This document shows positions 1 to 37,625 of a stretch of 64,000 bases of DNA, one piece after another. The position numbers and the translations under genes are program-made. This DNA is from a virus. The first letter of the stretch is position 1, and each line of letters starts with the position of its first letter. A model generated the notes under the pieces. It was given only the letters and a program-made list of their open reading frames with translations, was not told where the DNA came from and searched no databases. The stretch spans positions 1 through 64,000 of the IMG/VR virus record IMGVR_UViG_3300032242_002636. One strand, written 5' to 3'.

Positions 1-37
1 TCTCTAGAGTAAAACTCAATACACAACCACTTTTTTC

Positions 38-66
38 TTGCAATTCTCAATAAAAAGTTATAAGAT
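38..66 (+). promoter_or_regulatory. promoter of the structured small RNA
   Basis: A TTGCAA -35-like hexamer and a TAAGAT -10-like hexamer are separated by exactly 17 nt. Initiation about 7 nt downstream would fall just before the terminal stem of the RNA. The -10 box matches consensus only moderately. Confidence 0.45.
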
Positions 67-72
67 ATAAAA

Positions 73-258
73 ATAGTCGATGTAATGCTACCATGCGCCT
101 GTCTCAAGTCAGGGGAGAGTTCGGATAACGAAGCCGATAGAAAAGCAGAGAGCATAGACTCGTCTGGTGTTACGATACCGAGGTACACGGTGAGCATTAG
201 ACGTTAAACAAACGAAATGAGGGATTGGGTATTAGTCATACTCAGTCCCTCATTTTTT
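73..258 (+). ncRNA. putative structured small RNA
   Basis: This stretch has no credible ORF but forms a closed secondary structure. A 7-bp terminal stem (83-89 with 193-199) extends through ACC/GGT with one bulge (90-92 with 189-191). Inside lie a CCTG/CAGG hairpin, a TTCG/CGAA hairpin and a GTGT-AC/GTACAC hairpin. It is followed at once by a strong intrinsic terminator and preceded by a promoter, which suggests an independent transcript of about 185 nt. Its base composition is more balanced than the flanks. I could not match it to 6S RNA, tmRNA, RNase P, a group I intron or a known riboswitch. A riboswitch-like leader for the downstream purine gene is less likely, because a new promoter follows the terminator. 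Confidence 0.5.
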
Positions 259-260
259 TT
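215..260 (+). terminator. strong intrinsic terminator
   Basis: An 18-bp stem, nearly perfect with G-U wobbles, pairs 215-232 with 238-255 around a TAGTC loop and ends in a run of eight T. The A-rich 5' side could let it act on the opposite strand too. Confidence 0.9.
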
Positions 261-289
261 ATTAGGTTGACTGCTTAAAAGGATAGATG

Positions 290-317
290 TTGAATATCAA
301 AGTTGTTGTGTTATAAT
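290..317 (+). promoter_or_regulatory. early-type promoter for the purA-like operon
   Basis: TTGAAT and TATAAT are separated by 16 nt, directly after the small-RNA terminator. Initiation near 324 would leave a short leader carrying an AAGGAG ribosome site for the next ORF. Confidence 0.55.
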
Positions 318-350
318 ATAAACAATTAGATGCGCTCAAAAAGGAGAGAA

Positions 351-509
351 TTGATTTCAAAACTTGGAATATGCCCACCAGAATTGGTAAAAGCATTTGC
401 TCCTGTTCGTGCTCGTATTAAAAGGGCTGTTGACAGTTGCTCTAAAACTGTTACACTAGAGCAAGCAATAGAACAAATAAAAAAATTCAATGAGACTAAA
501 ACAAATTGA
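351..509 (+). CDS. small hypothetical protein (52 aa)
   Basis: The reading frame is open from an ATG at 330, but that codon would lie only 12 nt after the promoter -10 box. A TTG at 351 follows an AAGGAG ribosome site by four nt, so I prefer it. The product is a basic helical peptide rich in Lys, Arg and Glu. Its last 20 nt overlap the start of the adenylosuccinate-synthetase gene, so translation may be coupled. No family is recognised. Codon choice looks like that of the neighbours, but a gene this short remains uncertain. Confidence 0.4.
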   Translation: MISKLGICPPELVKAFAPVRARIKRAVDSCSKTVTLEQAIEQIKKFNETKTN

Positions 510-1503
510 ACATGTAGATATTATTGTGGGTCTTGCTTGGGGAGATGAAGGCAAGGGAAAAATCTCAAGCGCACTTGCAAAGAACTATGATATGGTATGT
601 CGTTGGAATGGTGGACCTAATGCTGGTCATACTGTTTATATTGATGACAAGAAGTACAAGACTCATCTTATTCCATCTGGAGTATTTCATGGAAAGCCTT
701 CTATCATTGGTCCTAACTGTGTAGTTAATATCAGTAAATTTTGGGAGGAGATGGAATATCTTAAAGAGAACGGATTTGATACTTCTTTAGTAAAGATCCA
801 TCCTCATGCTCATATGATTACCAAAGATCATATTAAGTTTGATTTGGATTATCTCAAACCTAAATTAGGAACTACAGGTCAAGGTATTGCTCCTTGCTAT
901 GCAGCCAAGGCAAATCGTGTAGGAGTACAAATCAAAGATTCTTCCATAGATCCACAGTATTATTGGGATGGTCATCTTGAAGGAAAGATTCTCTGTGAAG
1001 GCGCACAAAGCATTTGGCTTGATGTGAACTATGGAGATTATCCTTATGTGACAAGTTCCGAGACCTTTCCTCATAATGCATGTTCTCTTGGATTCTCTCC
1101 TAAGAAGATTCGTAATATTATTGGTGTTGCAAAGATTTATGATACCAAGAGTGGAGTAGATCCTTTGTTTCCTGAGAGTCTTTGGGAGAATGAAGAACTC
1201 AATAAGATTATCGAAGAAGGCAAAGAATTTGGAACTACTACTGGTAGAAAGAGACTTGTAAATTATCTGAATATGCCAAAACTTTTACAGGCTATTAATC
1301 TCTCTGGAGTAAATAAACTTATCATCAATAAATGTGATGTCTTGGAAAAGTTAAATATTAATAAACTATGGATCAATCAGGTTCGCACCTACGGTTCCTT
1401 CGAAGAAGTAAAGGATGTAATAAGACTTTATATTTCTACAGGAAATGTTAATGGAATGAACGATTCTGATATTGTCTTTTCAGGAGATGTGACTAAAATA
1501 TAA
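490..1503 (+). CDS. purA: adenylosuccinate synthetase-family enzyme (PurA/PurZ type)
   Basis: PurA couples a purine monophosphate to aspartate using GTP. Visible motifs are GLAWGDEGKGK (14-24), NAGHT (44-48), the nucleotide loop starting GTTGQGIAP (127-), EGAQ...YPYVTSS (170-190), the aspartate loop GTTTGRKR (248-255) and the guanine-specificity motif NKCD (280-283). At 337 aa it matches the short archaeal/phage type rather than bacterial PurA of about 430 aa. Phage PurZ enzymes, which make 2-aminoadenine precursors, replace the catalytic Asp of WGDEGKG. Here Asp19 is kept, and NKxD argues for GTP as donor. Ordinary PurA chemistry or a PurZ0-like intermediate is therefore more likely than true PurZ. 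No MazZ, DatZ or DpoZ homologue is seen, and the DNA polymerase is a T4-type family B enzyme. Confidence 0.9.
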   Translation: MRLKQIEHVDIIVGLAWGDEGKGKISSALAKNYDMVCRWNGGPNAGHTVYIDDKKYKTHLIPSGVFHGKPSIIGPNCVVNISKFWEEMEYLKENGFDTSLVKIHPHAHMITKDHIKFDLDYLKPKLGTTGQGIAPCYAAKANRVGVQIKDSSIDPQYYWDGHLEGKILCEGAQSIWLDVNYGDYPYVTSSETFPHNACSLGFSPKKIRNIIGVAKIYDTKSGVDPLFPESLWENEELNKIIEEGKEFGTTTGRKRLVNYLNMPKLLQAINLSGVNKLIINKCDVLEKLNINKLWINQVRTYGSFEEVKDVIRLYISTGNVNGMNDSDIVFSGDVTKI

Positions 1504-3199: not shown

Positions 3200-3396
3200 T
3201 ACACGAATTTAACCATCCTATACCAGTAGTAACTCCATTAGGTGATGCTTATGTGATTTATGTAACTCATAGTGGAATGTTTGAAAATGATGTGTTCACT
3301 GTTGCTCTTTGTGAAGATGGTCAGATAAGACATTTTGCTAGTGATCAGATCAAAATGTATATAAATGCAACCTTTGGTATAGGAAAAGGTAAATAA
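3196..3396 (+). CDS. hypothetical protein (66 aa)
   Basis: The start overlaps the nucleotidase stop as ATGA, so translation is probably coupled. The product is short and beta-rich (VIYVTHSG, FTVALCEDG), with no membrane segment or known motif. Its stop codon overlaps the late-type element of the next gene. Confidence 0.6.
   Translation: MIHEFNHPIPVVTPLGDAYVIYVTHSGMFENDVFTVALCEDGQIRHFASDQIKMYINATFGIGKGK
3389..3395 (+). promoter_or_regulatory. late-type element (GTAAATA)
   Basis: The element is 5 nt before the next start codon, and no ribosome site lies between. Confidence 0.45.
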
Positions 3397-3400
3397 TAAT

Positions 3401-3709
3401 ATGAATAAAAAAGATTTAACCTCATTAATGGAAGCATATGATACTTTGGCTACACCAAATGAACAAAATGCTACCTCTACAGAACTCTCAACAGTTGCCG
3501 ATGTAACAACACAGACAAGTTCAGAAGGCGATACACAAGAAGAAAGAAAGAGTATGATTGATTCCAACCTTAAGACTATTGGGCAACATCTTTCAGAAAT
3601 CGAACAAGCTATAGGACAAGGACATGAAGTAGAGCCTTGGATGGAAGAAAAGATTGCAGTTGCAACAGATTCAATAGTTAGAATCGCTAATGCAATTAGA
3701 AACCGATAA
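3401..3709 (+). CDS. small protein with targeting-like N-terminus (102 aa)
   Basis: The first residues, MNKKDLTSLMEAYDTL, form the amphipathic leader shared by several proteins here and contain an LME/A site of the (L/I)xE type cut by T4 prohead protease. A Thr/Ser-rich stretch follows (about 20-48), then a helical C-terminus. A late-type element precedes it. An internal or head-associated virion protein is an inference from these features. No family is recognised. Confidence 0.55.
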   Translation: MNKKDLTSLMEAYDTLATPNEQNATSTELSTVADVTTQTSSEGDTQEERKSMIDSNLKTIGQHLSEIEQAIGQGHEVEPWMEEKIAVATDSIVRIANAIRNR

Positions 3710-34715: not shown

Positions 34716-37625
34716 ATGGCAAAGAAGAAAGAACAGGAAAGTAATTCTTTAGATGAGTTAACTATGGATGATATTTTGGTAGATGGAAAATTCTATCAAG
34801 GCAATGAGAATATCCTTCGTAAGGATGCTACATTTAAATGGACAGAAGAGATGTTGGCAGAGCTTAAACTCTGTGCCAAGAGTATTCTTCATTTTGCAGA
34901 AAACCATTTCTATATTATTACCGAAGACGGTAAAAGAAAGATTGAATTATACAAATATCAAAAAAGACTTTTAAAGGCTTTTAAATCTAATAGATTCAAT
35001 GTAATCCTATCTAGCCGTCAAAGTGGTAAGGCATTGGCTTTGAATACGCCCATACCAACACCTAATGGTTATGTTATGATGGGTGATCTTAAAGACGGAG
35101 ATCAAATATTTGGATCAGATGGTAATATATATAACATAAAAAAAGCACACGAAATTCTTAATCATAGAGAATGTTATAAACTAACATTTGATAACGGGGA
35201 ATCTATAGTTGCAGATGCTGAACACCTTTGGTTTACGCAGACAAAAAAAGATAGAAAAAGAAAATATAATAGAGAAGGTAGCGTAAAAACTACCAAAGAA
35301 ATTTTTAATAGTTTATTTTATACTTCCAATAACGAGCCTAATCATAGAATACCTATGTGTTTGAATGGTATAGAGTTTGAAGAAAAAAATCTACCAATAT
35401 CTCCATATATTCTTGGACTTTGGTTAGGGGACGGTGCAACTGATGGCTCAAGAATAACTGTTGGTAAAAGAGATATAAAATATATTATTGATATTTTAGA
35501 AAAAAATCAAGAATTCAAAATTATAAAAGTTCAAGAAGATAAAAATAGTGTTTTTGCTATAAATTTAACAAATGAAGAGAGAAAAAAAGATTCTTTACAC
35601 ACAAAATTAAGATTAAATGCTTTATTGGGAAATAAACACATCCCAGAATTATATCTATTATCTTCTAGAGAGCAAAGATTAGAATTATTAAAAGGATTGA
35701 TGGATTCTGATGGTTATATAACACCTAAAGGTCATGCATATTTTTATAATACCAATTTAAAATTGGTCAAACAAGTTCAATCTCTTATAACTAGTTTAGG
35801 ATATAAAGCCTTTTATAAAGAGAAAATAGCAAAAATAAATGGAGTGGAGTGTGGTCTTGTTGGAAGTGTTTACTTTAAACCAAGAGAATTTGTTGTTAAA
35901 TTACCATTTAAAGTAGATAGATTAAAAGATAATTTAAGCATTGTATCAGAATCAAATAGAAACCAATATCATTATATTAAAAATATAGAAAAAACAGAAA
36001 GTGTTCCTGTTAGGTGTATAACCGTTGATAGTCCAAATTCTCTATATCTTTGTGGTAGAAACTTCATACCAACTCATAATACAACTACAATTACCATTTA
36101 CGCTCTTTGGTTGGTGTGTTTCCAATCAGACAAGAGAATTACTATTGTAGCTAACAAGGAATCAACTGCAAAGGAAATCTTTGCTAGAATCAAGATGGCA
36201 TATGAACAGCTTCCGATTTACATGAAGCCAAATATTAAGTCTTGGAGAAAAGATGGCTTTGTTCTTGGTAATGATTCTGCAATTACTATTAGTACAACAT
36301 CATCATCTGGTCCTCGTGGTACTACCAGTAATCTTCTCATCATTGATGAGATGGCTCATTGTCCTGATGATCTCATGAGAGAACTTTGGAAATCTGCTAT
36401 TCCTATTATTTCTTCGATGAAGAAATCACAGGTTGTAGTCATTAGTACTCCTAATGGTAAGAATAATAAATTTTATGATCTTTATGAGGATAGTAAGAAG
36501 GAAGGAAGTGAGTGGAATCTAGAAGTTGTTAACTATTGGGATGTACCGGGTCGTGATGAGGAGTGGGTAAAAAAGACAATGGCAATGATGGGATCAAAAG
36601 ATGATTTTGATCAGGAATATTGTAATGTTTTCCATGATCCTAATAAAAGTGTGATTGATGAAGAGTATCTTACTAAATTAAAAGGTGAATGCCCAGAACC
36701 AGTTTTAGTATTGGAAGATGGTGCTTACAAGATATTTGAGCTTCCAAATCCAGATAGTTTTTATGTTATAGGTGTTGACGTTGGTGAAGGTATAGGAAGA
36801 ACAAATACTGTTGCTCAAATTTTAGATGTTTCTAATCTACAAAATATTAAACAAGTAGCTATATTTGCTTCTAATAATATAAATCCATTTCATTTTGGAA
36901 CACGACTAATGGGTGTTCTTCAGGATTGGGGAAGACCTCCTATCTTGGTTGAAAATAATAACAACGGACAGCAAATTTTGGACGTTCTTTGCCAGACTCA
37001 TAACTATGAGAATGTAGTATCATATCACTTTGAAGGTTTTAGTAAGCACTATAATAATACTCATAGATACGGTATACATAATCATACTAATACTAGATAT
37101 AAAGGTATAACAAACTTTAGATATTGGGTCAATAGTTTAAAAGCTGTTAAGCTCAATGACATGGATACTATCTTAGAGATAAACAGTTTTGTTCGTCTTC
37201 CAAATTATACATATACAAAGAAAAATGAAAAGGATCTTGATGATCGTGTATTTGGTCTTATATGGGCATTATTCATTCTTGATCCTTCCTTGGTAGCTAG
37301 ATACTTTACAATACAAGAATTAGACGATCAAGGTCGCCCAATGAAAATTTTTCCTCTTAGTGATAATAAGGATCTTATAAAGAATAGTCCATTACTAATA
37401 GGAGGTGGTGCTAGTATAGTAAAGAAACCTTCGGTTAATACTCCTTATTCTCATGTAGGTGGAATGGATATGGCTACTGGATTTGACCTTTTCTCTGATG
37501 ACAGAGCAAATTTACTAAGATGGATGTTAGAAACAGAGGAAGCTGATAGGATGTTACCTCCACAAATTGATGATAATTCGGATAAGTCTTCTATGGACAC
37601 TTATCATCCAACTATAATATTTTAA
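34716..37625 (+). CDS. large terminase subunit (gp17-like) precursor with intein
   Basis: The 969-residue precursor would give a 619-residue terminase after splicing. The Walker A sequence SSRQSGKT is split between Lys105 and the next extein Thr. Walker B is LLIIDE (540-545), with a coupling motif STTSSSGPRGTTS before it. The C-terminal nuclease begins YVIGVDVGEG (about 685), with further acidic residues in LVENNNNG and LDDRVFGL. It packages DNA into the prohead using ATP. The intein must splice before ATPase activity is possible. Confidence 0.93.
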   Translation: MAKKKEQESNSLDELTMDDILVDGKFYQGNENILRKDATFKWTEEMLAELKLCAKSILHFAENHFYIITEDGKRKIELYKYQKRLLKAFKSNRFNVILSSRQSGKALALNTPIPTPNGYVMMGDLKDGDQIFGSDGNIYNIKKAHEILNHRECYKLTFDNGESIVADAEHLWFTQTKKDRKRKYNREGSVKTTKEIFNSLFYTSNNEPNHRIPMCLNGIEFEEKNLPISPYILGLWLGDGATDGSRITVGKRDIKYIIDILEKNQEFKIIKVQEDKNSVFAINLTNEERKKDSLHTKLRLNALLGNKHIPELYLLSSREQRLELLKGLMDSDGYITPKGHAYFYNTNLKLVKQVQSLITSLGYKAFYKEKIAKINGVECGLVGSVYFKPREFVVKLPFKVDRLKDNLSIVSESNRNQYHYIKNIEKTESVPVRCITVDSPNSLYLCGRNFIPTHNTTTITIYALWLVCFQSDKRITIVANKESTAKEIFARIKMAYEQLPIYMKPNIKSWRKDGFVLGNDSAITISTTSSSGPRGTTSNLLIIDEMAHCPDDLMRELWKSAIPIISSMKKSQVVVISTPNGKNNKFYDLYEDSKKEGSEWNLEVVNYWDVPGRDEEWVKKTMAMMGSKDDFDQEYCNVFHDPNKSVIDEEYLTKLKGECPEPVLVLEDGAYKIFELPNPDSFYVIGVDVGEGIGRTNTVAQILDVSNLQNIKQVAIFASNNINPFHFGTRLMGVLQDWGRPPILVENNNNGQQILDVLCQTHNYENVVSYHFEGFSKHYNNTHRYGIHNHTNTRYKGITNFRYWVNSLKAVKLNDMDTILEINSFVRLPNYTYTKKNEKDLDDRVFGLIWALFILDPSLVARYFTIQELDDQGRPMKIFPLSDNKDLIKNSPLLIGGGASIVKKPSVNTPYSHVGGMDMATGFDLFSDDRANLLRWMLETEEADRMLPPQIDDNSDKSSMDTYHPTIIF
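35031..36080 (+). mobile_element. class 3 intein with LAGLIDADG-type endonuclease
   Basis: The 350-residue insert starts with Ala instead of Cys/Ser and ends THN before Thr+1. Trp67 lies in ADAEHLWFT, and Cys329 lies in VPVRCITV. With Thr+1 they form the W-C-T triad of class 3 inteins, in which the block-F Cys starts splicing. Two dodecapeptide motifs, LGLWLGDGATDG and LLKGLMDSDGYIT, mark a LAGLIDADG homing endonuclease. Insertion exactly within G-K/T of Walker A is a typical conserved site. Confidence 0.95.

Follow-up and report, generated by a model that had tools for sequence, protein, structure and literature searches.

A putative divergent twister ribozyme that may form the 3′ end of a longer phage non-coding RNA

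A 107-kb phage record has, at its left end, a structured stretch, positions 73-258 of the window (the 64,000 nucleotides of DNA analysed here). In a first-pass annotation it had been described as a discrete orphan RNA, about 185 nt long, with a promoter of its own, a closed terminal stem, a strong terminator and some likeness to 6S RNA. What kind of RNA is encoded here, where does it begin and end, and what could it do for the phage? We find that positions 75-160 are probably a twister ribozyme of type P1, without P3 and with P5, acting as the 3′-end module of a longer RNA.

Over positions 73-262, the predicted fold reached −64 kcal/mol (z = −4.67), and none of 200 shuffled sequences was equally good. 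The terminator segment (209-258) gave z = −8.65 and the hairpin at 161-203 was of moderate stability (z = −2.90), while segment 75-160 was ordinary (z = −0.58; equalled by 54 of 200 shuffles). Since the terminator supplies most of the stability, 161-203 a part of it and 75-160 none, positions 73-258 are not one closed RNA. The strong terminator was borne out and a stably folded non-coding stretch is present, although its stability is mostly that of the terminator; the proposed closing stem also exists (75-82 with 153-160, one G·A mismatch), but it closes the first half only.

The promoter fared worse. A consensus scan of the window found no −35/−10 site with at least 9 of 12 matching positions before position 73. 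In a relative, IMG/VR 3300032236_001514 (L006; 96.5% identity over window 1-510), the spacer before the ribozyme holds a weak promoter-like site (9/12), and some 200 nt upstream of it, at L006 4346-4373, TTGACA-16-TATAAT matches the consensus at 12/12 positions and carries a TG element. This second site stands just 5′ of an RNA, here called X, whose final ∼30 nt match window 1-30; for scale, shuffled sequences contained a mean of 1.9 and 1.4 promoter-like sites per 600 nt in two scans. Because of these L006 sites, with the 12/12 match upstream of X, the 5′ boundary of the transcript probably lies outside the window. A discrete RNA of ∼185 nt driven by a promoter of its own is thus unlikely: in relatives the block makes up the 3′-terminal part of a longer RNA, and the cleavage predicted at 83|84 would divide it.

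At Rfam gathering thresholds the window yielded tRNAs alone. In a permissive search of positions 1-600, the best match was twister-P1 (RF03160) at 79-156, with 27.5 bits and E = 0.00099 over 4227 families; searched alone against the whole 107-kb record, the same model gave E = 4.3e-5, a search in which 3 of 14 control genomes also matched at a loose E of 1, none above the cut-off. The covariance search proposed in the first-pass annotation recovered a known class, with a score under the gathering cut-off (27.5 of 67.2 bits). That cut-off is a database threshold and no anatomical feature. Six viral twister loci used as controls scored 37-68 bits with RF03160, five of them under the gathering score, so that missing it is not telling. 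Members of the window's own subfamily (defined below) scored 22-32 bits, and for two of them, L204 and L263, no twister match was listed at E up to 0.05 and 0.5, respectively. The Rfam cut-off, these scores show, hides a phage twister subfamily. The permissive search ruled out 6S, HDV-like, hammerhead and other Rfam classes (for 6S and HDV-like models, no match at E up to 10 in 1-600). Weak matches to MIR405, Yfr19 and patAB all fell on the terminator hairpin and were taken as chance effects of its long stem. The RNA is thus no orphan: best match, core, pseudoknots and cleavage motif all point to a twister.

All three essential stems pair in the window (Table 1): P1; P2 (86-88 with 145-147, plus 89-144); and P4 (98-101 with 110-113, the pair 101-110 being the extending G-C pair). 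P5 pairs 122-124 with 134-136, plus 121-137. The conserved residues of L4 (GUCUCAAGUC) and L1 (GAGAG) are present, and both pseudoknots can form, T1 through C103-G152, U104-A151 and C105-G150, and T2 through C91-G108 and A90-U109. Pseudoknots go unscored in a covariance model. The Rfam consensus has CCC/GGG for T1 and GC/GC for T2, whereas the window has CUC/GAG and AC/GU; as both sides differ from the consensus and still pair, T1 and T2 have changed in a compensated manner. A UAA at 83-85 directly follows P1 and supplies the U-A cleavage step, with the cut predicted between U83 and A84. As far as they can be checked, the features of sequence and pairing expected of a twister are all there. 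The layout agrees with the anatomy given in the part of PMC5408937 drawn on here, according to which P3 is dispensable, with a short junction taking its place in about 20% of twisters, a G-C pair extends P4, T1 and T2 link L4 to L1 and L2, and cleavage takes place at a U-A step beside P1. From its sequence, we would class the ribozyme as a divergent member of this known class.

Table 1. Features at the left end of the window
Feature	Position	Strand	Remarks
3′ tail of RNA X	1-30	+	remainder beyond the left end of the record; 96.5% identity to L006
AU-rich spacer, X to ribozyme	31-74	+	missing from relatives other than L006; earlier read as promoter
Putative twister ribozyme, type P1, no P3, with P5	75-160	+	Rfam match, descriptor, alignment, covariation
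P1, 5′ strand	75-82	+	75-78 with 157-160, 80-82 with 153-155; 79·156 is G·A
Loop L4	101-110	+	T1, 103-105 with 150-152; T2, 108-109 with 90-91
L1, 3′ segment (GAGAG)	148-152	+	T1 partner
Hairpin B	161-203	+	recurs 3′ of twisters; internal loop 5′ NNYGAU / 3′ GAG
Intrinsic terminator	214-256	+	19 pairs; fold z of 209-258
Promoter-like site, 10/12 with TG	290-317	+	consensus match only; 3′ of terminator, for genes leading to purA

When run on 9.6 Mb of first-order random sequence, a twister descriptor, set up after the match was known, had no match; among the window and the loci first examined, it found solely copies of the window and of L006. L006 differs from the window mainly in P5, the P3 junction and the outer P2 pair, and by eye one P5 pair has changed from U-A to A-U. 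Two consensus patterns retrieved 75 and 100 viral stretches from IMG/VR, and 99 of these 175 passed the descriptor (33 of 75 and 63 of 100 in a recount with slightly different limits). Five viral stretches (L208, L233, L184, L138 and L181) carry two or three separate descriptor matches each. Some passing stretches share the layout of the window and form a subfamily; a pattern with two fixed 10-mers, TAATGCTACC and GTCTCAAGTC, drew 24 viral stretches from IMG/VR, and in all 24 the 3′ half of the twister continues.

We aligned the window with 13 of these 24, leaving out nine that repeat the twister of a row already kept (L217, L218, L229, L253, L259, L260, L280, L298, L299) and two without P5 (L269, L284). 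In the 14 sequences, 88.4% of paired cells were compatible with pairing, versus 33-47% with slid partners, and both sides had changed in seven of eight P1 pairs and three of four P4 pairs. P2 was invariant except for its outer (fourth) pair, which forms in the window alone (1 of 14), and the residues of P2 and of L1 (GAGAG) that the search pattern had left free were invariant. T2, T1 and P2 pairs lying wholly or half inside the search pattern are constrained in their variation and were not counted as support. Relatives that covary were the test named in the first-pass annotation for a functional structured RNA, which is supported on this point. The relatives are all metagenome contigs. Beyond the subfamily, searches returned little. 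By blastn, window 1-520 gave short, weak matches alone among named phages, the best to staphylococcal phage PB50 (E = 0.1, covering 31-76), and the X-twister regions of L204, L006 and L257 matched none. Other twister parts were found around none of the six viral stretches with the pattern TNTCAAGTCAGGNGAGAG and none of ten stretches from a scan of bacterial genomes. Model R1 found nothing beyond L006 in 46 records of DNA-polymerase/purA relatives, nor did RF03160 in 50, the latter a weak absence as no control matched.

In 19 of the 24 stretches, the ribozyme directly follows RNA X (for L217, X was counted from L303, the adjoining piece of its contig). X ends about a dozen bases before the cut, except in L006 with its spacer of ∼45 nt. 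The window's X is truncated by the end of the record; its upstream part can be seen in L006, which has the whole of X 3′ of the 12/12 promoter. Five twisters lack X in front: L294 and L299 have a different closed module in its place, L295 has another RNA, and in L269 and L284 nothing was recognised. Conversely, a 24-nt pattern from the second hairpin of X matched 21 stretches, i.e. 18 copies of X and three chance matches (L300, L302, L305). All 16 copies with enough sequence are followed by a twister, its loop 198-223 nt further on; the other two (L303, L304) run out of sequence. Eleven distinct X sequences, aligned without L006 and the later-found copies, had a mean identity of 79% and both-side changes in 12 of 39 consensus pairs. 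Rfam gave no match for X in the relatives' loci checked, and none for the L006 X at E up to 10. The latter resembled other X sequences beyond all 60 shuffles in two of five pairwise comparisons (score 42 versus a best shuffle of 26 for L297, and 39 versus 23 for L207; the values were 30/31 for L216, 23/23 for L296 and 19/28 for L257). Its fold alone was no better than that of shuffles (z = −0.47). Judged by sequence, it is a diverged, shorter form of X.

At the level of predicted structure, these comparisons establish a twister core with both pseudoknots, covariation and a terminator, and, in relatives, the order X, twister, hairpin, terminator. The best explanation would be that 75-160 is the 3′-end module of a longer phage ncRNA. 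Transcription would start upstream of X and run through twister, hairpin B and terminator; the twister would then fold and cleave itself at U83|A84. X would end in a 2′,3′-cyclic phosphate, and a piece of ∼175 nt with a 5′-OH would be released. X would thereby gain a defined 3′ end and be rid of its terminator. That the same arrangement occurs in other tRNA-rich phages suggests that X owes its end to the cut.

Could the useful product instead be the piece downstream of the cut? Cleavage might trim a small RNA, 84-258, at its 5′ side; this RNA would be made from its own weak promoter and comprise the ribozyme core, hairpin B and the terminator. The 9/12 site in the L006 spacer lends this reading some weight. 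So does hairpin B, which stands right behind the twister in L254, L301/L306, L197 and L296/L298 and recurs behind twisters in five distinct sequences. (Its loop consensus was read from the printed sequences because MAFFT shifts the 3′ side of the alignment; by eye, a kink-turn-like internal loop was considered. A pattern search for hairpin B matched the L006 contig alone.) However, in most relatives a short GAGTTCGAACTC hairpin or a different module takes its place while X is conserved, relatives other than L006 have no spacer, and the window's promoter match is below 9/12. Because the downstream piece varies and X does not, we regard such a product as fairly unlikely. A GC-rich hairpin and a T stretch come next in many relatives; 14 of the 24 stretches contain a T run of the type sought, that of L211 being too distant to belong, and L204, L207 and L257 have a shorter one after a strong hairpin. 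The module that replaces hairpin B in L263, L294, L297, L299, L269 and L247 reads CCCTGTG...TTGCAA...CTCGACGGAG...GCAGGGA and had no Rfam match in L263, L294 or L297.

A regulatory role, in which the twister or hairpin B acts as a sensor and cleavage or termination controls transcription into the genes leading to purA, seems quite unlikely. Its appeal is that the terminator stands between the ribozyme and the next genes, and that artificial twister switches are described as functional in the part of PMC5052635 at hand. Against it, a separate promoter-like site follows the terminator, the RNA occurs in L006 only among seven purA relatives, and other genes come next in other loci. The simpler idea of a purA leader was rejected, as the RNA is missing from purA relatives other than L006. 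The purA-like gene itself (490-1503) encodes a protein of 337 aa that matches Pfam Adenylsucc_synt and a PHROG described as 2-aminooxy adenylosuccinate synthetase, so that, by sequence similarity, a PurZ-like enzyme is possible. Elsewhere in the window, the large terminase gene (34716-37625) contains a LAGLIDADG match, which suggests an intein.

A decayed, inactive twister in a phage RNA cluster would account for the low Rfam score and for the absence of the outer P2 pair from 13 of 14 sequences, and is very unlikely given the compensatory changes in P1, P4, T1 and T2 and the invariance, over 14 sequences, of the pattern-free residues of L1 (GAGAG) and P2. That another fold merely resembles a twister is hardly credible: although the score lies under the Rfam cut-off and ribozyme activity is predicted from sequence, the whole conserved core with compensated pseudoknots is present, and the twister 3′ half in 24 of 24 relatives.

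The preferred reading, of a twister that makes the 3′ end of X, directs attention to X itself. Its neighbours in the loci examined are tRNAs, tmRNA and group I introns, and tRNA-Met is often found upstream. Exchangeable closed modules, such as GACTAG...CTAGTC and GATTACTG...CAGTAATC, occur between tRNA-Met and X or directly 5′ of the twister, e.g. at L257 900-1135, at about 5830-5700 on the minus strand of L204, and before X or the twister in L296 and L254. L006 also has a tRNA-Asn (gtt) gene at 3234-3491 with a 183-nt intron in the anticodon loop, for which Rfam gave no group I match at E up to 1. Whether X is a new modular class of phage ncRNA, combining exchangeable closed 5′ modules with a conserved core, commonly located near tRNA-Met, other tRNAs and tmRNA, and maturing through a built-in twister, we judge evenly balanced. 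Its fixed linkage to a twister appears to be new; a search of open-licence PMC articles, preprints not included, found no report of a phage RNA that ends in a twister, which is no proof of absence. If true, a natural twister would have a defined job, namely to form the 3′ terminus of a stable phage RNA. A 2023 paper states, in the part relied on, that it is still unknown what biological reason lies behind the genes with which bacterial twister and hammerhead ribozymes are associated (PMC10085705). The role of natural twisters is largely open, and a fixed place behind one conserved phage RNA makes the question directly testable. The finding also draws attention to an undescribed class of phage RNA next to tRNA and tmRNA genes.

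How does this locus compare with known systems? With 6S RNA it shares size and a closing stem, as had been remarked; the stem of 75-160 does not span the RNA, and the permissive search speaks against this kinship. With twister type P1 (RF03160) it shares the UAA cleavage motif, P1, P2, P4, L4, L1, T1 and T2, and it differs in having no P3 but a P5, in the bases of T1 and T2, and in score. X recalls GOLLD RNA (RF02032), a large structured phage RNA near tRNAs with a variable 5′ and a conserved 3′ part, one example of which lies 3′ of a Met-tRNA; unlike X, GOLLD is linked to no twister in the portion of PMC12286853 from which this is taken. X was rejected as a GOLLD member: none of 15 records scored above the cut-off or over noise, the weak matches in two of the 15 were located elsewhere, and 5 of 14 control genomes matched too. 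By analogy, the nearest precedent would be the HDV-like theta ribozymes of gut phages, which, in the part of PMC10879173 used here, likewise cleave themselves, lie beside phage tRNA genes and have a proposed role at an RNA 3′ end. Their fold is another, and the substrate postulated for them is the 3′ trailer of a tRNA, whereas here it would be an undescribed structured RNA.
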